From Picosynechococcus sp. PCC 7117 (GTDB lineage: Bacteria > Cyanobacteriota > Cyanobacteriia > Cyanobacteriales > MRBY01), in contig NZ_CP016477.1 in the NCBI RefSeq assembly GCF_001693275.1, forward strand, positions 1,736,001-1,800,000: a DNA stretch of 64,000 nt, read 5' to 3'. A program made the position numbers and the translations under genes. The number at the start of each line of letters is the position of its first letter. Position 1 is the first letter of the stretch. This document shows, piece by piece, positions 6,964 to 27,647 of this stretch. Under the pieces are notes generated by a model that worked only from the letters and a program-made list of their open reading frames with translations, searched no databases and was not told the DNA's origin.

Positions 6964-7473
6964 ATGCGGGACGCTGTTACAAGTCTGATCAGAAATTACG
7001 ATACCACCGGGCGTTACTTTGACCGTGATGCCATCGAGAGCCTCAAAGACTACTTTGCTTCGGGGAATGACCGAATCACCGTTGCGGCGATGATCAATAG
7101 TCAATCTGCGGAGATCGTCAAGGCCGCGGCCAATAGTCTCTTTGAAGCGGTTCCTGAACTGCTCTTAGCTGGGGGCAATGCCTATACGACCCGTCGCTTT
7201 TCTGCTTGCTTGCGGGACATGGACTACTACCTCCGCTATGGCACCTATGCCTTAATTGCTGGGGATATGGACGTTCTCAACGAGCGGGTCCTACAGGGTT
7301 TGAGAGAAACCTATAATTCCCTAGGGGTGCCCATTGCACCAACGGTTCGGGGAATTCAATTCCTCAAGGATGCGATTAAGGAAATGGCGGCGGCGGCTGG
7401 CATTGCGAATACGGCTTTTATTGATGAACCGTTTGACCACATGACCCGTGAACTGAGCGAAGTGGATCTCTAA
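6964..7473 (+). CDS. apcF: Allophycocyanin beta-18 subunit
   Basis: A 169-residue phycobiliprotein. The block R-R-F-S-A-C-L-R-D-M-D-Y-Y-L-R-Y contains Cys82, the single phycocyanobilin attachment site, and the start M-R-D-A-V-T-S-L-I-R-N-Y-D is characteristic of ApcF rather than ApcB. ApcF replaces one beta subunit in the core trimers next to ApcE and helps pass energy to photosystem II. It is separate from the main apc operon, as is usual. It has a long leader with a small hairpin and a strong terminator downstream. Confidence 0.93.
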   Translation: MRDAVTSLIRNYDTTGRYFDRDAIESLKDYFASGNDRITVAAMINSQSAEIVKAAANSLFEAVPELLLAGGNAYTTRRFSACLRDMDYYLRYGTYALIAGDMDVLNERVLQGLRETYNSLGVPIAPTVRGIQFLKDAIKEMAAAAGIANTAFIDEPFDHMTRELSEVDL

Positions 7474-7525
7474 ATTAGTTGACGGCAACTAACTTACACC
7501 AATGGTGGGCTGTCACCTCAGTTCC

Positions 7526-7556
7526 TTGCTCTGACCCTGGTCGGGGCAATTTTTTT
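7526..7556 (+). terminator. Intrinsic terminator after apcF
   Basis: TTGCTCTGAC (7526-7535) pairs with GTCGGGGCAA (7540-7549), including two G-T pairs, with a 4-base loop and a run of seven T. It lies between apcF and the convergent ntcB. Confidence 0.85.
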
Positions 7557-7580
7557 ATGGGTCTTTTTCTAAACCGAGAC

Positions 7581-8498
7581 CTAGGCACTAAGGGTATCGA
7601 GGCGCGGTTGAGAAAGAAGTTGGGTAATGAGACTACAAAAATATTGAATTGGGGGAATCTCTAGGCGATCGCTAGTCGTGACGAGGACAACTTCCCGCAT
7701 ATCCATGGCATCGGGCAGAGGTTTGACCACAAGGGCAGAATCAGTGCGGGCTTCGACGAGGGCAGATTGGGGCAAAAGGGCAATCATATCACCCTGGCGT
7801 ACCAGGCCACGGAAGGCATCGAGGCTATTGAGTTCAACGGTGGCCGTGGGGGCGAGGCCGTGGTTGGCGAGCTGATCTTGCACGTAGCGTTGCATACCGT
7901 AGCCGTCCTTAAAGACCACTTGAGGGTAGCTCGCGATATCGATCCAGCTTAATTTTTCCTTCTGGGCGAGGGGATGATGTCTACTGAGGAGGACTTCAAC
8001 GCTTTCTTTGTAGAGGGGCATCACGACCATATCGGGACTGGCGGTGAGAAAGCGATTATTCATGACAATGGCCACATCCACAAGGCTATCCCGCAGCACT
8101 TTTAGGGCGCGATCGCTGCCGAGGGCGGTGACTCGCAGTTGGGTTTGGGGGTACATCCGACAAAATTGTTGGAGTACGGGCGGCAGATGGTAAGCACAGA
8201 CGGAGTGAATGGCAGCGACGCAGAGTTCCGATTGATTGCCCGCGAGGAGATCGTTGATTTCGGCACGGGCATTGTCCCAACTGCTACAAATTTTGCGGGC
8301 GTAGGGCAGAAACCGTTCCCCCGCCAGGGTGAGTTTAACCTGGGCACTGCGGTGAAAAAGGGGCATCCCGACGGCGGCCTCAAGGCTTTGAATTTGGCGA
8401 CTGACGGTGGATTGGGTGACGCCACATTGCTGGGCTGCTTGACCAAAATTTCCGGTGGCGGCGATCGCCAAAAATGCTTGCAATTGCTCCAGGCGCAT
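7581..8498 (-). CDS. ntcB: LysR-family nitrate-assimilation regulator NtcB
   Basis: A 305-residue LysR-type regulator. The N-terminal helix-turn-helix (residues 1-60) has T-Q-S-T-V-S-R-Q-I-Q-S-L-E, followed by a ligand-binding domain. The blocks A-I-H-S-V-C-A-Y-H-L-P-P-V-L-Q-Q-F and F-K-D-G-Y-G-M-Q-R match NtcB, which activates nitrate/nitrite assimilation genes in response to nitrite (established). CmpR and RbcR are relatives but start differently. Its own promoter carries an NtcA-type site, and it sits 1.2 kb from glnA. Confidence 0.85.
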   Translation of the reverse strand: MRLEQLQAFLAIAATGNFGQAAQQCGVTQSTVSRQIQSLEAAVGMPLFHRSAQVKLTLAGERFLPYARKICSSWDNARAEINDLLAGNQSELCVAAIHSVCAYHLPPVLQQFCRMYPQTQLRVTALGSDRALKVLRDSLVDVAIVMNNRFLTASPDMVVMPLYKESVEVLLSRHHPLAQKEKLSWIDIASYPQVVFKDGYGMQRYVQDQLANHGLAPTATVELNSLDAFRGLVRQGDMIALLPQSALVEARTDSALVVKPLPDAMDMREVVLVTTSDRLEIPPIQYFCSLITQLLSQPRLDTLSA

Positions 8499-8542
8499 GG
8501 GTCATCCCCTTGGTTAAATGTTTTCCTGTCATGTGCCCAATG

Positions 8543-8586
8543 AGTTTACTGCATTGATTTTGGGGCTTTTTGTTCCGGATGTTACA
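8543..8586 (-). promoter_or_regulatory. NtcA-type promoter of ntcB
   Basis: Read on the minus strand: TGTA-ACATCCGG-AACA (8586-8571), then TAAACT (8548-8543) as the -10 box, 23 bases after the GT-N10-AC core. The extended TGTA...ACA flanks are kept, with one mismatch in the right half-site. NtcA regulation of ntcB is known in other cyanobacteria; its use here is inferred from the motif and spacing. Confidence 0.65.
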
Positions 8587-8726
8587 AACCTCAAGAAAGG
8601 AAAAGGGCCAGAACTCAATAATCTGACAAAAATCTGGCAAGTCCTGCGGAAGAATCTATCATGGGGACAATTTGCGCCTGTGTTCAATCCGTGGCCGAGT
8701 GATTTGCCTCGGTTGCATCCCTAACT

Positions 8727-9899
8727 ATGCCCAATATGAATCGCTCTAATCCTGATCCCCTGGCTCCTCTCTCTGACTATTGGGCCACATCGTTCACTAA
8801 TCAGTTAGCCACAGTGAAGGGTTTAGGGGCTTGGTTTGGGTCTGGGTTTGATCCGGCTCGACCACTGACCCGGACTGAGTTTGCCAGGGTGCTAGCCCAA
8901 TGTTTTGATCTGCCACGACCCTGGGGCACTTTTGTGCCGGAATTTCCAGATGTTGCGCGCCAAGACCAAGCGGCGATCGCCCAAGCGGTCTCCATGGGAT
9001 TTTTGACGGGTTATCCCGATGGCACCTTTCGCCCCCAGGCTGTGCTGAAACGGTTTGAAGTGCTAGAAGCGTTGGTACGGGGTTTAGGGTTGAGTCCAGG
9101 GAATCCAGCAGTATTACGGGCTTTTCGAGACTATGCCCAGATTCCTTCGACGGTGATGGGGGCGATCGCCGCTGCAACCCAACACCATTTGGTCGTGACC
9201 CAGCCCAAGGTTGATCTGCGACCCCTCCAGCGGATCACCTGGGGGGAAATGGCCGCTTTTTTGCACCAAGCCTTGGTTTTACAGGGGGAATTACCCGTTT
9301 TGGCTGCGCCTGGATTGGTCGATCCGCTGCCCTATTTGCCGACCTTTAGCGATGTGCAAAACCACTGGGCCAAACCCTTTATCCAGGCGATCGCCAATCT
9401 TGGCTACATTCACGGTTCAGCCCAGGGCCAATTTTTCCCCGATCAACCCCTCAATCGCGCCCAGTTTGCCCTGTGGATCCAGGCCATATTTCACCCTAGT
9501 CCCCGACGGCCCCGGAAACGATTTCTCGATGTGCCGTCCCATTTGCCTGTCGCCGAGGCCATTCAACAGGGATATCAAGGCTGTTTTTTCTCTGGTTTTC
9601 CTGACCATACTTTCCAACCCCAGCAACCCTTATGGCGCGTCCATCTCCTCGTGGCGATCGCCCAGGGTCTGCGTTTACCACCAGGGGACATTGCCCTGAC
9701 AGAACACTACGCAGATCAGGAGGAAATTCCCCCCTATGCCCAGGCAGCGGTGGCGGCGGCTCTCCAGGCAAAAATTGGTGTGCTCCCCCAGGAAAAATTA
9801 ATGCTCAAACCTCAGGCGATCGCCACCCGAGCCGAAGGCCTCGTTTATTGCCACCAGGCTTTGGTTTACGGCCAACGATTACTGCCCCTTACTGAGTGA
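8727..9899 (+). CDS. SLH-domain protein without signal peptide
   Basis: A 390-residue protein made almost wholly of S-layer-homology repeats. Repeat starts are seen as [16 protein letters not shown] and F-L-D-V-P-S-H, each followed by a G-Y/F-x-D-G/H-T-F-x-P turn, plus a weaker fourth unit. SLH domains bind cell-wall polymers or anchor porins. The oddity is the start: the first 30 residues are polar, and no signal peptide or membrane segment is seen, so either the start is wrong or the protein is not exported in the usual way. It overlaps the convergent hisF by 11 bases. Confidence 0.8.
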
Positions 9900-19487: not shown

Positions 19488-20402
19488 ATGACTGTTTCTT
19501 TCCCCCGTTTTCTCCCCCTCGTTGTCAGCCTTGCCCTAGTTGTGGGGTTTTCAGAATCAGCCACCAGCGAACCGCAACTCCAAGTCACAGTCAATCCCAG
19601 CAGTCCCAAACTTGGGGAGAGCATGGCCGTAATCATTGATCCCCCCGGCACCCTCGATCCCCAACAGGCCGATACTTTAACGGTGCGCTTTACTAAAAGT
19701 GGCGCGACCCAGGCCGATACTTACCCTGTTTTCCCTCTCGATCCGGCCGGCGATCGCTACCGAGCTTTAATTCCGACATCTCCCCTCGAACCCCACGGCA
19801 AAACCCTCCTCCAGGTGAGTGATGGCAACGAAACCCGCAACCTCGCCGTTTGGATCCAAGACCGCCGTTTCCCGACCCAACGCATTACCCTTTCTGGCAG
19901 TGGCTCTGGCCCTGCAACCCAATACGAACTTGACCGCGTCGCCGCCCTCAAAGCTATTGTCTCCCCCACAAAACATTGGAATGGCCCTTTCCTGCGGCCG
20001 AATAGTGGTCGCGTTTCAACGATTTTTGGCGTACGGCGCTACTACAATGGCGTTTTTGCCCAAGATTACTACCATCGCGGCATTGACTACGCAGCAGGCT
20101 ATGGTTCTCCGGTGGTTGCGCCTGCCGCCGGTAAAGTGGCCCTGATTGACTTCGAGAAAAATGGTTTTAAAGTACACGGCAATACCGTCGGTATTGACCA
20201 TGGCCAGGGCGTCATTAGCGTTTTCCTACACCTCAACAGTATTCCCAGCAACCTCAAGGAAGGAGATTTTGTCCAAGCAGGTCAAGCGATCGGCACCGTC
20301 GGTTCTAGTGGTGCTTCCACCGGGCCTCACCTCCACTGGGGACTCTATGTCAATGGCGTGGCGATCGATCCGGAACTTTGGCGTAACCAAACGGTTCAAT
20401 AA
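19488..20402 (+). CDS. M23-family metallopeptidase, exported
   Basis: A 304-residue LytM-type peptidoglycan endopeptidase or scaffold. The N-terminal signal peptide (F-L-P-L-V-V-S-L-A-L-V-V-G-F) is followed by a beta-rich linker domain and the C-terminal M23 fold. Zinc ligands are seen in Y-H-R-G-I-D-Y and H-L-H-W, with V-V-A-P-A-A-G-K-V and G-S-S-G-A-S-T-G-P-H between, so the enzyme looks active. It acts in the periplasm on peptide cross-links. Followed by an intrinsic terminator. Confidence 0.92.
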   Translation: MTVSFPRFLPLVVSLALVVGFSESATSEPQLQVTVNPSSPKLGESMAVIIDPPGTLDPQQADTLTVRFTKSGATQADTYPVFPLDPAGDRYRALIPTSPLEPHGKTLLQVSDGNETRNLAVWIQDRRFPTQRITLSGSGSGPATQYELDRVAALKAIVSPTKHWNGPFLRPNSGRVSTIFGVRRYYNGVFAQDYYHRGIDYAAGYGSPVVAPAAGKVALIDFEKNGFKVHGNTVGIDHGQGVISVFLHLNSIPSNLKEGDFVQAGQAIGTVGSSGASTGPHLHWGLYVNGVAIDPELWRNQTVQ

Positions 20403-20517
20403 CCCGATGGTGATTTAGGTCATTTAGCTGAGGACACTGCGTTACTCATCCATGGCTTAAGCGCTCCTGTAAACCGCTCTATCGCCCTTAGATCGCTGAA
20501 AAACTAAGACAAACTAG

Positions 20518-20549
20518 CCTTTGAACCTTCTTTAGTTCAAGGGTTTTTT
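20518..20549 (+). terminator. Intrinsic terminator after the M23 peptidase
   Basis: CCTTTGAAC (20518-20526) pairs with GTTCAAGGG (20535-20543), with one G-T pair, an 8-base loop and six T. It isolates the feo genes from the upstream gene. The remaining 160 bases to feoA are AT-rich with no Fur box I could recognise. Confidence 0.8.
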
Positions 20550-20711
20550 GTTGCGAAAGTGAGGCCTTTGGTGATCGAGGTCTGGACTACCTGGGTCTAG
20601 GTTACAAAAAATTTCACTGATTTAGCGGTATGCAAAAATATTATAAAGTGGTAAATGCAAATATTTTTTATTATTCTCTTCAAAATTAAATCCGCTAAGA
20701 GGACAAACAGC

Positions 20712-20954
20712 ATGACCCTTTTAGACTTGGCTGTTGGGCAAATCGCGCTAGTTCGTGAAATTTCTGATAGTAAATATGGTCAAAGTTTAATTACACGCCT
20801 AGAAGCACTAGGAATTATTCCTGATAAACCCATTCAGGTTTTACGGAAGGCGGCTCTTGGGGGGCCACTCCATTTACGGATTGGTAGTACGACGGAAGTT
20901 GCCATGCGACGGGATGAAGCCCAGCATATTTCTGTGAGCATCGCTGAGGTGTAG
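20712..20954 (+). CDS. feoA: Ferrous iron transport protein A
   Basis: An 80-residue SH3-like protein that assists the FeoB Fe(II) channel. It shows the FeoA pattern L-x2-L-x2-G-x3-G, then L-G-I-I-P, an R-K-A-A-L-G-G-P-L stretch and V-A-M-R-R-D-E-A. The ATG at 20712 follows a purine-rich AAGAGGACA; an in-frame ATG 19 codons upstream would add an unlikely hydrophobic tail. FeoB begins within 4 bases of its stop, so the two are co-transcribed. Confidence 0.93.
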   Translation: MTLLDLAVGQIALVREISDSKYGQSLITRLEALGIIPDKPIQVLRKAALGGPLHLRIGSTTEVAMRRDEAQHISVSIAEV

Positions 20955-20957
20955 TTG

Positions 20958-22805
20958 ATGGTTCACCATTGCCATGCAACCCCGATCAACTCGCAACGGA
21001 AAGATGTGACGCGACGAATTGCCTTCGTGGGGCATCCGAATACGGGGAAATCGACGTTTTTTAATCGGATCACTAAAGCCAATGCGGCGATCGCCAACTG
21101 GCCGGGTTTGACGGTGGACTTATTTCGGGCGGTGATCAAGCTCGATCAAGAGATCGTCGAATGTATTGATTTGCCGGGAATTTATGACCTTAATGGTTAT
21201 TCCGATGACGAGCAGGTGGTACGGCGGTTTTTAGAGGAGTATGCGGTCAATTTGGTGGTGGTGGTGCTGAATGCGGCACAGATTGATCGCCAGTTACGGC
21301 TCCTGTTGCAAATAAAATCCCTCGGTCTGCCGGCGATCGCCGTGTTAAATCTGGCCGACGAAGCGAAACGCTATGGGGTCAAATTTGATGCCACCACAAT
21401 CAGCGAACGGGTCAATGTTCCCGTGTATGCCATTAGTGCCAAATATGGTGAAGGCTGTCCCCGTGTTCTGCAATGCATTACCCGCACGGTTCATGAACAG
21501 GCAGAAGCCTATCGTATTAAGGATTTAAGGCAATCGCTCCATGACCACTACGTCCACAGCGAGGAAGTAGACGCCATCCTTGAAGGGGTATTGCAGATGC
21601 CCTCGCCCACTATCCGCACCTTTACCAATGTACTGGATGGCATTTTGTTGCATTCCGTCTGGGGATTACCGATCTTTTTCACCTCAATGTTTGGGGTCTT
21701 TTGGCTCATCTGGACAGTCGGTTTACCCAGTGCTGATCCGGTGGATGCCGTCACGAGTTGGCTGCAGAAGATCATTTTAGAACCGCTCCTGTCTCCCTTG
21801 CCGACGCTACTCCATGACTTACTACTAGATGGGGTTTGGGCCGGTTTTGCCGCCTTGTTATCATTTGTGCCGTTGGTGGCCATCTTTTTTATCGTGATGA
21901 GTTTCCTCGAAGGCAGTGGCTATCTGTCCAGAGCAGCCTATTTAATGGATTCTCTCATGGGGCGTTTGGGCCTTGATGGTCGCACCTTTGTGCTGCAAAT
22001 GATGGGCTTTGGCTGTAATGTCCCGGCGATTATGGGCACAAGGGTGATGCGGAGTCGGGGGATGCGCCTCTTGGCGATGCTGGTGATTCCTTTCTCCCTC
22101 TGTTCAGCGCGGTTGCAGGTGTTTGTGTTTATTCTCGCAGCGGTAATGCCGGGCTACCAAGGGGCGATCGCCTTATTTGTGTTGTACCTCATGAGTTTTG
22201 TTACCGCCTTTATCGTGGCCGCTTGTTTGAGTCGTTTTAAGTATTTTGCCGTGCGGGATCCCTTTGTTTTAGAACTGCCTCCCTATCGTCTCCCCACCCT
22301 CACCCAAGTCGCCCTGAGAGTATGGGGAGAGATGAAAGAATTTGTAGTACGTCTCTCAACTTTCATGATTATTGGCAGTAGTCTGATTTGGCTGCTTACG
22401 AGCTTTCCAGAAGGCAGTACTGGGCTCGACACCTACGCCGGACAAATTGGCGGCTTATTTCAGCCCATAATGGCCCCCCTCGGTTTTAATCCATTTTTGA
22501 CGATTTCCGTGTTGTTTGGCTTTGTTGCCAAAGAAGTCCAAGTTGCAGCCCTGGCTGTTCTCTATGGCCTAAGTGAAGTCGCCACAGCCCAAGAATTGAG
22601 CAATAGTATTACCTTTGCCCAGGGTTTTAGTTACTGTTTATTTAGTCTTATTTATATGCCCTGTTTGACGACCCTCGGTGCTATTTGGGGTGAGGCAAAG
22701 TCAGTGCGTTATTTACTTATTTCAATCATCCTTCCCTTTGTTACAGCTTGGATCTTTAGTTTTGTTGTTTACCAAAGTTTTCTGTTATTAAATATTGGCA
22801 CTTAA
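20958..22805 (+). CDS. feoB: Ferrous iron transporter FeoB
   Basis: About 615 residues: an N-terminal G domain (G1 G-H-P-N-T-G-K-S-T, G3 D-L-P-G, G4 N-L-A-D), then a helical GDI region and two Gate repeats of membrane helices, including the conserved Cys in M-G-F-G-C-N-V-P-A and the second gate with F-V-A-K-E. It imports Fe(II) across the inner membrane. It is shorter than E. coli FeoB (773) but a natural length for cyanobacteria. The ATG at 20958 follows an in-frame TTG directly after the feoA stop. It leads into the metal cluster at 22991. Confidence 0.95.
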   Translation: MVHHCHATPINSQRKDVTRRIAFVGHPNTGKSTFFNRITKANAAIANWPGLTVDLFRAVIKLDQEIVECIDLPGIYDLNGYSDDEQVVRRFLEEYAVNLVVVVLNAAQIDRQLRLLLQIKSLGLPAIAVLNLADEAKRYGVKFDATTISERVNVPVYAISAKYGEGCPRVLQCITRTVHEQAEAYRIKDLRQSLHDHYVHSEEVDAILEGVLQMPSPTIRTFTNVLDGILLHSVWGLPIFFTSMFGVFWLIWTVGLPSADPVDAVTSWLQKIILEPLLSPLPTLLHDLLLDGVWAGFAALLSFVPLVAIFFIVMSFLEGSGYLSRAAYLMDSLMGRLGLDGRTFVLQMMGFGCNVPAIMGTRVMRSRGMRLLAMLVIPFSLCSARLQVFVFILAAVMPGYQGAIALFVLYLMSFVTAFIVAACLSRFKYFAVRDPFVLELPPYRLPTLTQVALRVWGEMKEFVVRLSTFMIIGSSLIWLLTSFPEGSTGLDTYAGQIGGLFQPIMAPLGFNPFLTISVLFGFVAKEVQVAALAVLYGLSEVATAQELSNSITFAQGFSYCLFSLIYMPCLTTLGAIWGEAKSVRYLLISIILPFVTAWIFSFVVYQSFLLLNIGT

Positions 22806-22990
22806 AATATTTTTTGCGAAATAAAATCAACAAATTGAGTGTATATAAATTCCTGTAAACAACACCAAAAAACTTTTTAAATTCACAGTAAAAATTAATA
22901 AAGGTAAAACTTAGGCCATGCCATAATAAAGACAAGAGCATCAAGCCTCAAAGTAGTTGACCGAAAACGCGGAAATTCTGGAGAAAATCA

Positions 22991-23293
22991 ATGTTAGAAC
23001 AAGTCAAAAGTGCCTACAATCAAACCTTAACTCGTCACGGCACCCTCAAAACCGTCGCCCTTGTTGCAGGGGCTGTGGTATTAGCCCCCGCCGTTGCGTC
23101 GATCCTGAAGCCAGTGGCGAAAGCCTCCATTAAAACAGGGGTGGTTCTCTATCAAAAAACGAAAGGGGCGATCGCCGAAGCTGGAGAACAAGTTGGCGAT
23201 CTTGTCGCCGAAGCCAAGGCAGAAGTTTTAGCGGAACAGGCTGCTAAGCAAGAACTTCCTGCCATCGAAGCCGTACAGGATCACAATGCTTAA
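22991..23293 (+). CDS. DUF5132-type small hydrophobic protein, candidate Fez component
   Basis: A 100-residue protein with one hydrophobic stretch (residues 20-45, V-A-L-V-A-G-A-V-V-L-A-P-A-V-A-S) followed by a basic amphipathic part and an acidic, Ala/Glu-rich helical tail (E-A-G-E-Q-V-G-D-L-V-A-E-A-K-A-E). This is the build of DUF5132 proteins, which are often found beside HMA-domain proteins and P-type ATPases. It has a good GGAGA ribosome-binding site. It is the first gene of the run DUF5132, HMA2, P-ATPase and may be a small membrane partner of that system (inference). Confidence 0.75.
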   Translation: MLEQVKSAYNQTLTRHGTLKTVALVAGAVVLAPAVASILKPVAKASIKTGVVLYQKTKGAIAEAGEQVGDLVAEAKAEVLAEQAAKQELPAIEAVQDHNA

Positions 23294-23344
23294 GACTGAA
23301 ATTTCAGTCTCAATGTTAATTATTGCCATGAAAAGGATAGTGCC

Positions 23345-23890
23345 ATGGTCAGCACAATTACCTCTGTAGAAAATACATCTCAAACCAGCCCCGATTCAGA
23401 AGTGACTCAACTGGCAAATTTTGTCAAAGAGCATGAAGAAATCGAAATGATTTTGCCTGTTTTGTTAGGGTTATTTATTACCAGTCGCCTCCAGTTGCGG
23501 GGGGCAAATGCGCTGTTGGTAAATCTAGGGATTGCCACTGTTTTGCGGCAGGTTTTTAAAGAGTTAAAACATCCCACAGTAAGCCCAGAGAAAAAAACAA
23601 CAGCTCCAGAAATGGATCACAGTGATGTCTTTGGGGATGGGGTAAAAATTGTTCATTCTGTGCCCGGTCGAATTCGTCTCCGGATTGATCAAATTGCCGG
23701 CGATCGCCTTTTTGCGAAACATTTAGAACGGCTGCTGCGGGATGATGACCATGTGCTGGGGGTGCGTTTTAATGCCTCGGCGAGTTCGGTGGCGATCCAA
23801 TATGATGCCGGCTCCTTCTCGGATATGGAATTGGGGCTCCGTCTGATGGATATTCTCAATAAAGCCCGCCTCGGTGAGGCGATCGCCTAA
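23345..23890 (+). CDS. HMA2-like protein with R-rich motif, candidate Fez component
   Basis: A 181-residue protein. Residues 35-75 hold one or two hydrophobic helices; residues 98-175 form a heavy-metal-associated-like ferredoxin fold lacking the C-x2-C metal site. The fold begins with V-H-S-V-P-G-R-I-R-L-R (H104 to R113), matching the H-x3-G-R-x-R-x-R motif that I recall from ferrosome proteins. The next gene, the P-type ATPase, starts 19 bases later and has a related motif. Role is inferred: a membrane-tethered partner that targets or assembles with the ATPase. Confidence 0.8.
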   Translation: MVSTITSVENTSQTSPDSEVTQLANFVKEHEEIEMILPVLLGLFITSRLQLRGANALLVNLGIATVLRQVFKELKHPTVSPEKKTTAPEMDHSDVFGDGVKIVHSVPGRIRLRIDQIAGDRLFAKHLERLLRDDDHVLGVRFNASASSVAIQYDAGSFSDMELGLRLMDILNKARLGEAIA

Positions 23891-23909
23891 GTCAAGCAAT
23901 CGAAAATTA

Positions 23910-26051
23910 ATGACCTCTCTCCAGCTTAGTTCGCAATTCACCTGGGATTTTCCCTTTGACTATAAGATTGTCCACCAACTTGTAGGGCGGCTTCGTTTAA
24001 AGTTAATCGCCTTTCCAGAGAACGGTTACAGTCGCTTATCAGCCTATTTCGCCACACTACCTTGGGTCGAAACCTTTCGGATTAATCCTTGGGCCGCATC
24101 GGTGGTGATTTACTACAGACCCGAACAGTTGCGGGCAGCACCTCTAACCCAAATAACGGCCAGTCCGCCCCCAAAAATCGCTGCTTTGTCCCTCTGGACA
24201 CAAGTGCGGCAATCTAGTTTAACGCTACCCCTCTTTGCAACAGCACTAGGTCTAGCAAGTAATCAGTGGGAAAGTTTGTTGCTCACAAGTTTGGCGCGAT
24301 TAACTTTATTGGGGGCTGGTTTTCCGGTGGCACAGCGGGCGCTCGCCAGCCTTTGGCAAGACCATAAACTTAATATCGACTGCCTAGATTTACTTGCCCT
24401 GATTTTTAGCGGCTGGCAGGGCAAACTCGTCACCCCTGCCTTGGTAATTACCCTCCATGAACTGGGGGATTTAATTCGTGAACAAACCGCCCGCGCCACG
24501 GAACGCACCACCGCCAATTTGATGGATACCATCGGGCGTTGGGCTTGGGTCGAGCGAGAGGGAGAAATTATTCAAATTGAGAGTGATCGGGTCCAAGTCG
24601 GCGAAACGGTCATCGTCTATCCAGGGGAACGGATTCCTGTCGATGGTGTGGTCATTGGTGGCGAAGCGACCGTCGATCAACAGCAACTGACGGGTGAATC
24701 GATGCCCATCGTCGCCCAGGTGGATACAGAAGTCTATGCCGCCACCCTCCTCCGTTCAGGAAAATTACGGATTCGCTGCGAGCGGGTCGGTCACAATACC
24801 AGAGCCGCCCTCAGTGTGGAATTGCTTGAAAAAGCCCCCGTCCACGATACTCGCATGGCAAACTACGCTGCCCAGCTGGCCGATAAACTGATTTTGCCGT
24901 CCCTTGTCCTTGCCAGCGTGGTGTATGGCACGACCCAAGATCCAACCCGGGCTGCCTCGATCCTGACCCTTGATTTTGTCACGGGAGTCCGGGTATCGAT
25001 GCCGACAGCCTTTTTAGGGGCGTTAAACCATACCACCCGCCACGGCATTCTCGTCCGCAGTGGGCGCACCCTGGAACTGTTGGCGGAAATTGACACGATT
25101 GTCTTTGATAAGACGGGGACCCTCACCCAAGGAAAAATCGCCATTGAATCGGTAACACCATGGGGGACTTGGGGCGATCGCCTTTCCCCAGAACGACTCT
25201 TGCAACTGGCAGCCTCTGCCGAGCAACGGATCACCCACCCCGTCGCCGAAGCCATTGTCCACCACGCTCAACAACAGGGTATTGAACTCCTCCCCCGTCA
25301 AGGTTGGGACTATCAGGTGGGATTTGGGATCAAAGCCACCATTGAGGGGCAAACGATTCTCGTCGGTAGTGCAACTTTCCTTGAACAAGAGGGCATTTGT
25401 CCCCTCGTCGATCAGCGAGAAACTAATAATTTTGCGGCATCAGCGATTTATGTCGCCTCTGACCAAGCGTTACTCGGTTGGCTGGCCTATACCGATCCGT
25501 TACGTCCCGAAAGTGCGTCTTTGATTGCGACGCTGCAACATGAGCATCAAATGGCGGTGCATGTGTTGACTGGAGATAGTCACCAACGGGCGCATCAGGT
25601 GGCTCTCGCCCTAAAAATTCCCGCGCACCATGTCCATGCGGAAGCCTTCCCAGAGGATAAGGCGCGGATTGTGCGCAACTTACGGCGGTCTGGTCGGGTA
25701 GTTGCCTTTGTGGGGGATGGTCTGAATGATTCGGTCGCCCTCGCCTATGCGGATGTCTCGATTTCCTTTGCCGATGGTTCGGACATTGCCCGGGAAACGG
25801 CGGATGTAGTCCTAATGAATAATGACTTGGGGACATTACTGGAGGCGATCGCCATTGCGAAGGAAACTCAAGCCCTCATCGAACAAAATACCCTGCTGGT
25901 GGTCGCCCCCAATATGATCGGCTTGGGACTGGCAGCCACGGTGGGGCTGAATCCCCTCTGGGCAACGGTGATCCACAACGGTACGGCGATCGCCGCTGGT
26001 TTGAATAGTCTCCGTCCCCTGCTCCAACACCAATTGGAAACTATGTCCTAA
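23910..26051 (+). CDS. P1B-type metal ATPase without CPx motif (FezB-like)
   Basis: A 713-residue P-type ATPase. The N-terminus has V-H-Q-L-V-G-R-L-R-L-K (H22 to K31) in an HMA-like fold without C-x2-C. The actuator T-G-E-S is at 261-264, the phosphorylated Asp is D400 in D-K-T-G-T, an H-P pair of the P1B nucleotide domain follows (T-H-P-V-A-E-A), and G-D-G-L-N-D is at 602-607. The membrane helix that normally holds C-P-C reads D-F-V-T-G-V-R-V-S-M-P (355-365), so the usual soft-metal ligands are missing. This fits a divergent class such as P1B-6 (FezB of ferrosomes); the transported ion is unproven. The ATG at 23910 is preferred to one 12 codons earlier that overlaps the HMA2 gene. Confidence 0.88.
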   Translation: MTSLQLSSQFTWDFPFDYKIVHQLVGRLRLKLIAFPENGYSRLSAYFATLPWVETFRINPWAASVVIYYRPEQLRAAPLTQITASPPPKIAALSLWTQVRQSSLTLPLFATALGLASNQWESLLLTSLARLTLLGAGFPVAQRALASLWQDHKLNIDCLDLLALIFSGWQGKLVTPALVITLHELGDLIREQTARATERTTANLMDTIGRWAWVEREGEIIQIESDRVQVGETVIVYPGERIPVDGVVIGGEATVDQQQLTGESMPIVAQVDTEVYAATLLRSGKLRIRCERVGHNTRAALSVELLEKAPVHDTRMANYAAQLADKLILPSLVLASVVYGTTQDPTRAASILTLDFVTGVRVSMPTAFLGALNHTTRHGILVRSGRTLELLAEIDTIVFDKTGTLTQGKIAIESVTPWGTWGDRLSPERLLQLAASAEQRITHPVAEAIVHHAQQQGIELLPRQGWDYQVGFGIKATIEGQTILVGSATFLEQEGICPLVDQRETNNFAASAIYVASDQALLGWLAYTDPLRPESASLIATLQHEHQMAVHVLTGDSHQRAHQVALALKIPAHHVHAEAFPEDKARIVRNLRRSGRVVAFVGDGLNDSVALAYADVSISFADGSDIARETADVVLMNNDLGTLLEAIAIAKETQALIEQNTLLVVAPNMIGLGLAATVGLNPLWATVIHNGTAIAAGLNSLRPLLQHQLETMS

Positions 26052-26126
26052 TCGTCTCCAGCGGTTGGGTTGCACAATCAATGGTTATATTCTGACACCA
26101 ACTTAACTTATCTTTGCTTTTTTAAA

Positions 26127-26663
26127 ATGTTCAAAAATCTAGAAATTGCCCTGAACGAAGCCCTCCAAGACGAATACAAAGCCTGCGAAACCTACCGTGT
26201 TGTCATTGAAAAATTTGGAGCAGTGCGCCCTTTTATCAACATTATCGAAGCTGAAAAACGACATATCCGCGCCCTTTTACCCCTTTTTCGTAAATATCAA
26301 CTGCCCATCCCCATTAACCCTTGGGTAAACAAAATCCCTGCCCCCGCAACCCTCCATGAGGCCTGTTTAGCGGGAGTACAAGCGGAAATTGAAAATGGCG
26401 AAATGTACAAAAAACTCCTTGCTCTCAGCGAAGGCTATGACGATGTGCAACGGGTCTTTCGCAATCTGCAACGGGCTTCCCAACAAAATCACCTCCGCAC
26501 CTTCCAACGGGCCGCAGGATTACCGATCAATACCTCACCCCTCGACCCCGAACAGGCAACATTCTATGGACAACGAGGCACAGGGGGAAGGAAAGGGCGG
26601 GGCTTTCGACATGGTCAACGCAGAAGAACTCTGTCTGGCCACTGTGGGACGAGCTGTCGTTAA
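26127..26663 (+). CDS. Ferritin-like (DUF2202-type) protein
   Basis: A 178-residue protein whose first 130 residues form a four-helix ferritin-like bundle: E-A-L-Q-D-E-Y-K-A-C-E-T-Y, then N-I-I-E-A-E-K-R-H-I, then G-V-Q-A-E-I-E-N-G-E-M-Y and A-S-Q-Q-N-H-L. Glu and His residues sit where a di-iron centre is expected, though the last motif has Gln in place of the usual Glu. The tail is Gly/Arg-rich and uses rare AGA/AGG codons. Position after feoAB and the P1B ATPase suggests iron binding or redox work (inference). The ATG at 26127 is chosen because upstream residues are not family-like. Confidence 0.8.
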   Translation: MFKNLEIALNEALQDEYKACETYRVVIEKFGAVRPFINIIEAEKRHIRALLPLFRKYQLPIPINPWVNKIPAPATLHEACLAGVQAEIENGEMYKKLLALSEGYDDVQRVFRNLQRASQQNHLRTFQRAAGLPINTSPLDPEQATFYGQRGTGGRKGRGFRHGQRRRTLSGHCGTSCR

Positions 26664-26871
26664 TGTTTCGGGGGGCGATCGCCTTTGGCTAGCAGTGAAA
26701 TTTTGGAGCTTGAGCCTCTACATTCACTGCCGCCAGGTCAACACCACCCATCTCCAAGGGCTGACCCGCACGGCAACGGTTACCCTGCCCGGTCATGCCT
26801 CGATGACCCATTCCACCACGCCCTCGATGGGGGCCCGATCAAGAACGGTCCGAATTTCTGCAATCAGTTGA
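26566..26871 (+). CDS. Possible small overlapping ORF, 101 aa
   Basis: An ATG-led frame that overlaps the last 98 bases of the ferritin-like gene in another frame and then runs 208 bases beyond it. Between 26566 and 26790 its codon use is more like the neighbours than that of the ferritin tail, and the product (for example D-R-L-W-L-A-V-K-F-W-S-L-S-L-Y) is not obviously a shadow. Its last 79 bases run antisense through the next gene. It may be a real small gene, a frameshifted extension or a remnant. I do not recognise it. Confidence 0.3.
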   Translation: MDNEAQGEGKGGAFDMVNAEELCLATVGRAVVNVSGGDRLWLAVKFWSLSLYIHCRQVNTTHLQGLTRTATVTLPGHASMTHSTTPSMGARSRTVRISAIS

Positions 26872-27110
26872 CGAACCGGTTCCCATGCTTCACCGGGATT
26901 GGTGTCGCACTGGGCTTGATAATTTACCAAGATATCCTCGAGTTGGTTGAGGGTTTGCCCCGTGAGAACAGCCTGCCCGCGATCTAAATGCTTTCCCAAG
27001 GTTAATAGCTCCTCTTCAATCGCTGCGGGGACGCGAATCGTTTTCGTTGCGCCACTCTGCCATGCACTCTTACGACCTGCACCGGGACGCATTCCGCCTC
27101 TACCTCTCAT
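26793..27110 (-). CDS. Small hypothetical protein, possible ribbon-helix-helix type
   Basis: A 105-residue protein starting at an ATG with a perfect AGGAGG site 7 bases upstream. The N-terminus is basic and Gly-rich (R-G-R-G-G-M-R-P-G-A-G-R-K), followed by T-K-T-I-R-V-P-A-A-I-E-E-E-L-L, a strand-helix pattern that recalls ribbon-helix-helix proteins; the rest is helical and acidic. It runs against the flanking iron-island genes. Gene is likely; the DNA-binding idea is weak. Confidence 0.7.
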   Translation of the reverse strand: MRGRGGMRPGAGRKSAWQSGATKTIRVPAAIEEELLTLGKHLDRGQAVLTGQTLNQLEDILVNYQAQCDTNPGEAWEPVRQLIAEIRTVLDRAPIEGVVEWVIEA

Positions 27111-27368
27111 TATCTTTCCTCCTGAAAAATGTGGGAAATCTATTACTTTATCTACCTTCAAGATAGCTCTCTGTTGATTTCGTGTCAATATCTAAAAGTC
27201 TTTAGGGCAAGGGTTTATAGATTTCGTCACAGAATAAAAGTCGCCACTGTTGCCATCTCCAGCCTAATACATTAAATTTCCCTATAAGAGATGCTTCAAT
27301 TGCAAAAACTATGCAATAATAAACCCAGGTTTACCTTGCAAAACTTTCAATGAGGTTCAAATTTAGCC

Positions 27369-27647
27369 ATGTCTTTGATTCACTGGAATAAGTCCGTCCT
27401 CAGTTTGCATCTCAGGGAAATTTTTGAGGATTATCATCGGGGTGATTCAACGGCGCTAACTAGTCTCGGGACGGTGATGTTGGGGGCGATCGCCTTATCG
27501 ACCACCTTCAAATTGGGAAAACCGCTACTAAAACAAGCCATCAAGACCACCCTGACTCTTTCTACAAATCCCCCTTCTTCCCCCGTCTCACTCCGGGCCA
27601 ATCTCGAATCATCCCAGCGTCATCTCCCAAATACTCGTTCCGAATAG
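27369..27647 (+). CDS. Small DUF5132-like hydrophobic protein
   Basis: A 92-residue protein with a hydrophobic helix (residues 30-48, L-G-T-V-M-L-G-A-I-A-L-S) and then K-L-G-K-P-L-L-K-Q-A-I-K-T-T, which mirrors the K-P-V-A-K-A-S-I-K pattern of the DUF5132 protein at 22991. The tail is short and polar with no acidic helix. It looks like a diverged paralogue in the same metal island and is probably membrane-bound. Function unknown. Confidence 0.6.
   Translation: MSLIHWNKSVLSLHLREIFEDYHRGDSTALTSLGTVMLGAIALSTTFKLGKPLLKQAIKTTLTLSTNPPSSPVSLRANLESSQRHLPNTRSE

Follow-up and report, generated by a model that had tools for sequence, protein, structure and literature searches.

A Fez-related P1B-type ATPase cassette next to feoAB in Picosynechococcus sp. 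PCC 7117: a candidate Fe(II)-handling system, not a fez cluster

The growth of cyanobacteria is often iron-limited, and their storage of iron is thought of in terms of ferritins and Dps. Six fez genes make ferrosomes in Shewanella putrefaciens, and the P1B-4 ATPases FrvA and PfeT, with an SPC motif in transmembrane segment 4 (TM4), serve in iron efflux. According to the accessible parts of the relevant papers, six fez genes also make ferrosomes in Rhodopseudomonas palustris (PMC12016538), and ferrosomes are proposed to serve in anaerobiosis (PMC12016538, PMC9160268). Here we describe a related gene cassette in a 64,000-nucleotide stretch of Picosynechococcus sp. PCC 7117 (bases 1736001-1800000 of contig 1; hereafter the window), whose genome comprises 3.43 Mb in six contigs. 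On the + strand the order is feoA, feoB, a gap of 185 bp, and genes for a small DUF5132 membrane protein, an HMA_2 domain protein, a P1B-type ATPase, a ferritin-like protein and a second DUF5132-like protein (Table 1).

A preliminary description had recognised the DUF5132, HMA_2 and ATPase genes as three in a row directly after feoAB, and Pfam/TIGRFAM-type matches on the + strand bear this out. It had further proposed a fez-like cluster. What stands of that proposal is an ATPase from the sister clade, an HMA_2 protein with GRxRxR and a recurring feo link; what falls is membership, since the ATPase lies outside the Fez clade, the TM4 Cys is absent and so is the six-gene set. The cluster is not a fez cluster, and the cassette is a close cousin, not a member, of the ferrosome-building machinery. 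We consider it rather likely that the DUF5132, HMA_2 and ATPase genes form a cyanobacterial system for handling Fe(II), one with an ancestor in common with the Fez pump; the ferritin-like gene probably belongs to it as well. This reading is supported by the sister-clade position, by D160, D355 and HNG in the ATPase, by the FeoB link, by the HMA_2 profiles and by a relative of the ferritin-like protein at a Fez-type locus in another cyanobacterium (genome G368).

The Shewanella/Rhodopseudomonas six-gene type shares several traits with the window cluster: the related ATPase with a GRxRx(R/K) N-terminal domain and intramembrane D160, D355, N668 and HNG, a separate HMA_2 protein and a small membrane protein. 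It differs in that the window has a Thr for the TM4 Cys, DUF5132 for the YtxH-like protein, recurring feo linkage and an oxygenic host. The PacL1-CtpC zinc efflux system of mycobacteria (DUF1490) also places a small membrane protein with an E/A-rich tail before a P1B-6-like ATPase with HN in TM6. Unlike it, the window has neither DUF1490 nor a C-terminal His-rich metal site, reads DFVTG instead of CPC in TM4 and falls on another branch. Pairs of DUF6110 and P1B-6 genes likewise combine a small membrane partner with an HN ATPase, and the one from Deinococcus sp. QL22 branches with the Fez-type; its TM4 (DISC) keeps the Cys, unlike the window's, and its row offered nothing against which the N-domain motif could be aligned.

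ATPases were called Fez-type if they came from the named loci found with the Vibrio/Cereibacter TM4 segment, were seeds of that search, or were the proteins from Azospirillum, G368 and G428. Of 198 confirmed stretches the best 80 were kept, in a set without sequences of R. palustris, ferrosome-forming Desulfovibrio, S. putrefaciens or Clostridioides difficile. We built a first tree of 122 ATPases, leaving out 41 near-duplicate Fez-type, 20 control and two P2-type rows as well as two partial ones from cyanobacteria, and a second, careful tree of 48. Loci L083 and L117 lacked a complete open reading frame (ORF) for the ATPase. The two trees agreed. In the 48-row tree the window ATPase fell within a cyanobacterial clade (support 100/99), which was joined by a Deinococcus peraridilitoris plasmid protein (100/100). 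Together these were sister to the Fez-type ATPases plus the DUF6110-linked Deinococcus one (100/97). The Fez-type clade itself (99/96) did not include the window protein, which is thus no member of the FezB clade. Lower branches of the same P1B-6-like group held the Priestia and Fusobacterium ATPases (84/66) and a CtpC-like one from Rhodococcus. Cu, Zn, Co and other P1B pumps lay outside the group (100/96), and both trees reject the ATPase as a Cu, Zn or Co pump; a grouping with copper or zinc classes, one of the outcomes named beforehand as fatal to the fez-like proposal, did not occur. The two tree rows with SPC (L273 and L253) also fell outside, so that the likeness to P1B-4 iron efflux would consist in Fe(II) transport by a P1B ATPase, as proposed for the window's.

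Residues were counted in all collected rows minus the two P2-type, plus G428, Azospirillum and the DUF6110-linked Deinococcus row. Position 160 is Asp, rarely Glu, in both the cyanobacterial and the Fez-type clades, and D160 recurs in the DUF6110-linked row but is missing from the CtpC-like, Priestia, Fusobacterium and other P1B rows. At position 355 the window, the 56 other cyanobacterial rows and the 83 Fez-type rows all carry Asp, where CtpC-like and other P1B rows have Ala, Ser or Thr. N668 and the TM6 HNG are further intramembrane residues common to the window and Fez-type rows. An S-C motif in TM4 serves as a P1B-6 criterion; the window ATPase has HN in TM6 and DFVTG, not S-C, in TM4. 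HN in TM6 is a P1B6 feature, and CtpC has HN with CPC in TM4, as stated in the accessible part of PMC9374683. The TM6 His (H689) occurs in the window and throughout the feo-linked sub-clade (22 of 22 scorable rows); the remaining 33 cyanobacterial rows carry Asn (30) or Ser (3) instead. At L181-L214, where no FeoB is nearby, it is mostly Asn, not in L181, and several genomes (e.g. G042, G024 and G172) hold one copy of each kind. An AlphaFold2 (AF2) model of the ATPase (mean predicted local distance difference test score, pLDDT, 75.9) matched the P1B structures 7qbz (Z 32.4, root-mean-square deviation 6.9 over 598) and 4umv (Z 30.8, 6.4 over 569).

The motifs VHSVPGRIRLR in the HMA_2 protein and VHQLVGRLRLK at the ATPase N-terminus, both read earlier from the translations, are present, and the earlier statement that GRxRxR is common to Fez proteins held up in alignments with Fez-type proteins; a lack of the motif there, a second outcome named beforehand as refuting, did not occur either. 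Across the 19 sequences aligned (two from the window), G, R, R, N, S and Y were invariant, and the VHSVPGRIRLR hairpin aligned with the Fez-type HHIPGRVRLK. HMA_2-type profile matches to Fez-type proteins ranged from 96 to 99.5%. For the HMA_2 protein the match was 97.4% (E 1.4e-11). For the ATPase N-domain it was 99.5% (E 8e-23), with the Pfam HMA_2 match there below cut-off (19.9 vs 30 bits). In its AF2 model the HMA_2 protein has N-terminal helices followed by a bb-a-bb-a domain, pLDDT mostly >90. A fold search with this model gave no match at E 0.001 or better; weak matches include HMA domains such as those of CopZ and PacS-N. The FezC of Desulfovibrio is a DUF4405-like cytochrome (PMC10979944, accessible part), and for this reason we rejected the HMA_2 protein as FezC. 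The genome has two weak DUF4405 matches, both >800 kb from the cluster.

We compared DUF5132 with the small proteins of the other systems by profile. Its alignment with the YtxH-like family of the Fez type, 67 columns long, is a remote match: the score was 38.4, or 30.9 when query and target changed places, while 40 column shuffles gave 18.2 at most. No relation to DUF6110 (two sequences) was detectable by profile comparison. In appearance its layout is that of PacL, a hydrophobic segment followed by an E/A-rich tail, which raises the alternative of a platform for metal efflux in the plasma membrane, resembling PacL-CtpC, in which DUF5132 would be the scaffold and which would guard against excess iron or another metal. 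The CtpC-like Rhodococcus ATPase, with GRIRVH near its N-terminus and HN in TM6, also fits this alternative. We regard it as somewhat unlikely. Pfam reports DUF5132 only and no DUF1490 match in the protein, and kinship with PacL (DUF1490) was rejected, as the shared VAEA stretch scores 23.7 against a best shuffle of 23.4. The CtpC-like TM4 reads CPC against DFVTG here, a cyanobacterial plus CtpC-like clade was rejected as a constraint (approximately unbiased test, p-AU 0.001), and simple export would sit poorly with the repeated pairing with an importer.

Cyanobacteria were the only phylum whose whole genomes were searched with the window ATPase. Its clade (matches of at least 371 bits, the next being at 281) was found in 52 of 386 cyanobacterial genomes, about one in seven. 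DUF5132 was found in 57, and the two together in 48 where 7.7 were expected. With up to two candidates scored per genome there were 69 clade matches besides the window's own, 56 of them in 55 fetched loci and 13 not fetched; five further loci (L215-L219), chosen for DUF5132, have no clade ATPase. Within 5 kb of the ATPase we found DUF5132 in 35 and an HMA_2 protein in 28 of the 55 clade loci. A second DUF5132-like gene lay within the same distance in 12 of 22 loci of one sub-clade and in none of the other 33; that sub-clade contains the ATPases nearest the window's. In the same-genus genome G081 the gene order is identical, with 92-96% protein identity across DUF5132, the HMA_2 protein and the ATPase. 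Because this order is kept and DUF5132 and the ATPase co-occur across cyanobacteria, the association is more than chance. A variant was seen on a Gloeothece verrucosa plasmid (L043 9831-11399), where HMA_2 is fused to what by inspection appears to be a degenerate P-type ATPase without DKTGT. The fusion adjoins DUF5132 close to an intact clade ATPase and is a possible pseudo-ATPase partner.

The iron link drawn from the feoAB position is conserved in related loci. The membrane part of FeoB lay within about 9 kb of the ATPase in 12 of the 55 clade loci (L160, L161, L162, L165, L167, L169, L173, L175, L177, L178, L179 and L180), from 9 genera and 6 families and with three FeoB architectures (short, canonical and split). 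Among control P1B loci it was found in 1 of 40 (L222), which is not a true control because its ATPase proved to be Fez-type. The control loci covered 671 kb of DNA and the clade loci 942 kb. All 12 were among the 21 top-ranked clade matches after the window's own (L160-L180), none among the other 34, which include L209, a broken copy from the sub-clade of the 21 that has no FeoB. Fisher p was 0.0065 for all 55 against controls and 1.8e-6 for the 21, a cut set after seeing the matches, neither value being corrected for relatedness. The feo neighbourhood might instead be incidental and the pump one for a different metal, which would accord with the 43 of 55 clade loci without FeoB nearby, with distances of up to 8.5 kb and with the changed TM4 ligand. 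The ATPase has FeoB of three architectures beside it in 9 genera, compared with a single case in 40 controls; this and the retention of the TM6 His in the feo-linked sub-clade make the alternative distinctly unlikely.

For the metal, the direction of transport and the roles of the partners we infer the following scheme, within the Fe(II)-handling reading. FeoAB would bring Fe(II) in and the pump would pass it on, moving it from the cytosol across a membrane by means of the intramembrane Asp, Asn and His-Asn residues and the Thr that replaces Cys. The HMA_2-like N-terminal domain and the HMA_2 protein, with their arginine-rich hairpins, may gate the pump or bind partners. DUF5132, with its acidic tail, might stabilise or cluster the pump, by analogy with PacL and CtpC. 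The destination could be a membrane-bounded store, the thylakoid lumen or the periplasm. A specific form of the second, in which the ATPase loads Fe or Mn into the lumen for photosynthetic proteins, has in its favour that the clade was seen in cyanobacteria (the one phylum searched by whole genomes), which use the thylakoid P1B ATPase PacS for copper. We consider it very unlikely: only 52 of 386 cyanobacterial genomes carry the ATPase, so it would not meet a general need, and a relative just outside the clade sits on a plasmid of Deinococcus, which has no thylakoids.

Several observations weigh against the Fe(II)-handling reading, against a fez identity of the cluster, or against both. The Fez-type label, with which kinship is claimed, rests on gene content and the genus Shewanella, no ferrosome-proven strain being in the set. 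The six-gene set, present at almost every locus of L050-L107 (Vibrio, Shewanella, Photobacterium, Ferrimonas, enterics and others; fewer members are recognised from L108 on), consists of a divergent HMA_2 gene, an HMA_2 gene, a Pro/Met-rich membrane protein, a small hydrophobic protein, a YtxH-like protein and the ATPase. By profiles the window cluster holds only part of it: HMA_2, the ATPase and a remote counterpart of the YtxH-like protein. No counterpart was found for the Pro/Met-rich or the small hydrophobic protein. All 57 cyanobacterial rows carry Thr or Ser at position 358 in TM4, where each of the 83 Fez-type rows carries Cys (DYSCALKL); the latter count is biased by the 78 of 80 named-locus rows that match a scan pattern containing the Cys. 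The Cys is also present in Vibrio THAF190c, Cereibacter, Azospirillum, G368 and G428 rows found without that pattern (the first two with the window's own ATPase), and in Priestia, Fusobacterium and Deinococcus QL22. Since the whole clade lacks it, selectivity may differ. FeoB was absent nearby in 34 of 55 clade loci (L181-L214) and in 9 of the 21 top-ranked ones, and with a Feo distance reaching 8.5 kb not all feo links are operons. The ferritin-like neighbour recurs rarely: of 55 other loci, three (L160, L164 and L167) have it close to the ATPase. The genome already has 4 ferritin-family genes. No clear Fur box was seen: the best Fur-like match in 20400-27400 reached 13/19, no better than elsewhere in the window, with a generic 19-base consensus. 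That match lies upstream of the probable feoA start. The fez genes of C. difficile are reported to be Fur-repressed (PMC12574912, accessible part).

The same observations bear on the stronger idea of a true ferrosome-like, lipid-bounded iron store in which DUF5132 replaces the YtxH-like and other Fez membrane proteins. We think this rather unlikely, given the missing TM4 Cys, at least two Fez-type genes of six for which no counterpart was found, the absence of a visible Fur box, the ferritin-family genes already in the genome, and the proposal of a role in anaerobiosis for ferrosomes (PMC12016538, PMC9160268, accessible parts). In its favour are the sister relation to Fez-type ATPases, the GRxRxR HMA_2 proteins in common, the remote DUF5132/YtxH-like match, the feo link and the occurrence of Fez-type ATPases in other cyanobacteria.

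Two such ATPases were found. In genome G368 (L222 7924-10218, and L267) the ATPase has TM4 DYCCALKLSMP and HNG. At L222 it is surrounded by FeoA, FeoB (8.7 kb away), a flavodoxin, a ferritin, a weak HMA_2 match, a Pro-rich protein that weakly matches YtxH, and a ferritin-like protein sharing 54% identity with that of the window across 128 aa. G368 gave the sole full-strength Fez-type match in the 386-genome sample; four other listed genomes matched at 31-34% through window-clade ATPases. A search of 201 genomes of its family yielded two carriers, the second being G428 (62% identity), a single-contig genome with the ATPase at L266 9082-11124 on the minus strand (DYCCALKL, HNG). A ferritin gene adjoins it (8377-8904), and 125 bp separate that gene from the end of one for a photosystem II D1-like (psbA-like) protein (7175-8251; Photo_RC 1.1e-88). 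In the 48-row tree both ATPases group within the Fez-type clade. Both loci also encode a P2-type-like ATPase of about 1380 aa with a long N-terminal extension (L222 2527-6693, minus strand; L266 11876-15997, plus strand; 59% identical). Should any oxygenic phototroph form ferrosomes, G368 and G428 are thus more probable candidates, and they support the idea of ferrosomes in cyanobacteria better than the window cluster does. That oxygenic phototrophs have two forms of membrane-bounded iron storage, a cysteine-free, Feo-coupled, DUF5132-scaffolded branch and Fez-type clusters in a few picocyanobacteria, is a tentative and on balance unlikely extension.

Table 1. Features of the feo and cassette region, in window coordinates
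Feature	Position	Strand	Basis
feoA ORF	20655..20954	+	PF04023 FeoA 1.5e-18
feoB, short form, ferrous iron importer	20955..22805	+	TIGR00437 7.4e-175; PF02421, PF07670, PF07664
feoB-DUF5132 intergenic region, 185 bp	22806..22990		
DUF5132 small membrane protein, E/A-rich tail	22991..23293	+	PF17195 2.7e-16
HMA_2 domain protein	23345..23890	+	PF19991 7e-8, 33 bits, above cut-off
GRIRLR motif (in VHSVPGRIRLR), HMA_2 protein	23666..23683	+	sequence, model, alignment; on first beta hairpin
P1B-6-like ATPase	23910..26051	+	TIGR01525 493 bits; sister clade of Fez-type in trees
GRLRLK motif (in VHQLVGRLRLK), ATPase N-terminal HMA_2-like domain	23985..24002	+	sequence, alignment
TM4 motif DFVTGVRVSMP (D355 to P365), Thr358 at Fez-type Cys position	24972..25004	+	alignment
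TM6 HNG (H689 N690 G691), P1B-6 hallmark HN	25974..25982	+	alignment
Ferritin-like (DUF2202/rubrerythrin-like) protein	26127..26663	+	PF09968 1.8e-5; 75 bp past ATPase
Second small DUF5132-like protein	27369..27647	+	profile match to DUF5132 95%, E 3.4e-8

The spacers from DUF5132 through HMA_2 and the ATPase to the ferritin-like gene are only 51, 19 and 75 bp, which suggests one transcript across these four genes. The second DUF5132-like gene starts 705 bp after the ferritin-like gene; a short ORF between the two (26793-27188, minus strand) had no Pfam match at E 0.01. The true start of feoA is probably 20712, as in G081, where the homologous ORF has 80 aa, and a GTG at 23874 is also open as an alternative start of the ATPase. 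Three heavy-metal P1B family ATPases in the genome score above cut-off, the cassette's among them. The 185 bp region upstream of DUF5132 possibly holds the cassette's own promoter; no sigma-70-like site was found on its + strand, in a promoter scan at shuffle level (8 found vs 8.2 expected). Terminator-like sites numbered 15 against 9.0 expected, and one such hairpin (11 pairs, 20516-20545) lies upstream of feoA. The main text of an expression study (PMC4628125), as far as accessible, contains no occurrence of feo or P-type ATPase.

In the open-access literature searched we found no mention of DUF5132 and none of ferrosomes in cyanobacteria; the main ferrosome papers lie outside that literature, and prior mention is possible. 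As a lead to membrane-bound iron handling in oxygenic phototrophs, the Fez-related pump cassette, feo-coupled in one branch, is good, though still unproven. Its clade is a natural Cys-to-Thr variant of a metal pump, useful for studies of selectivity. Together with the Fez-type ATPases of G368 and G428, the cassette makes membrane-bounded iron handling in an oxygenic phototroph directly testable.

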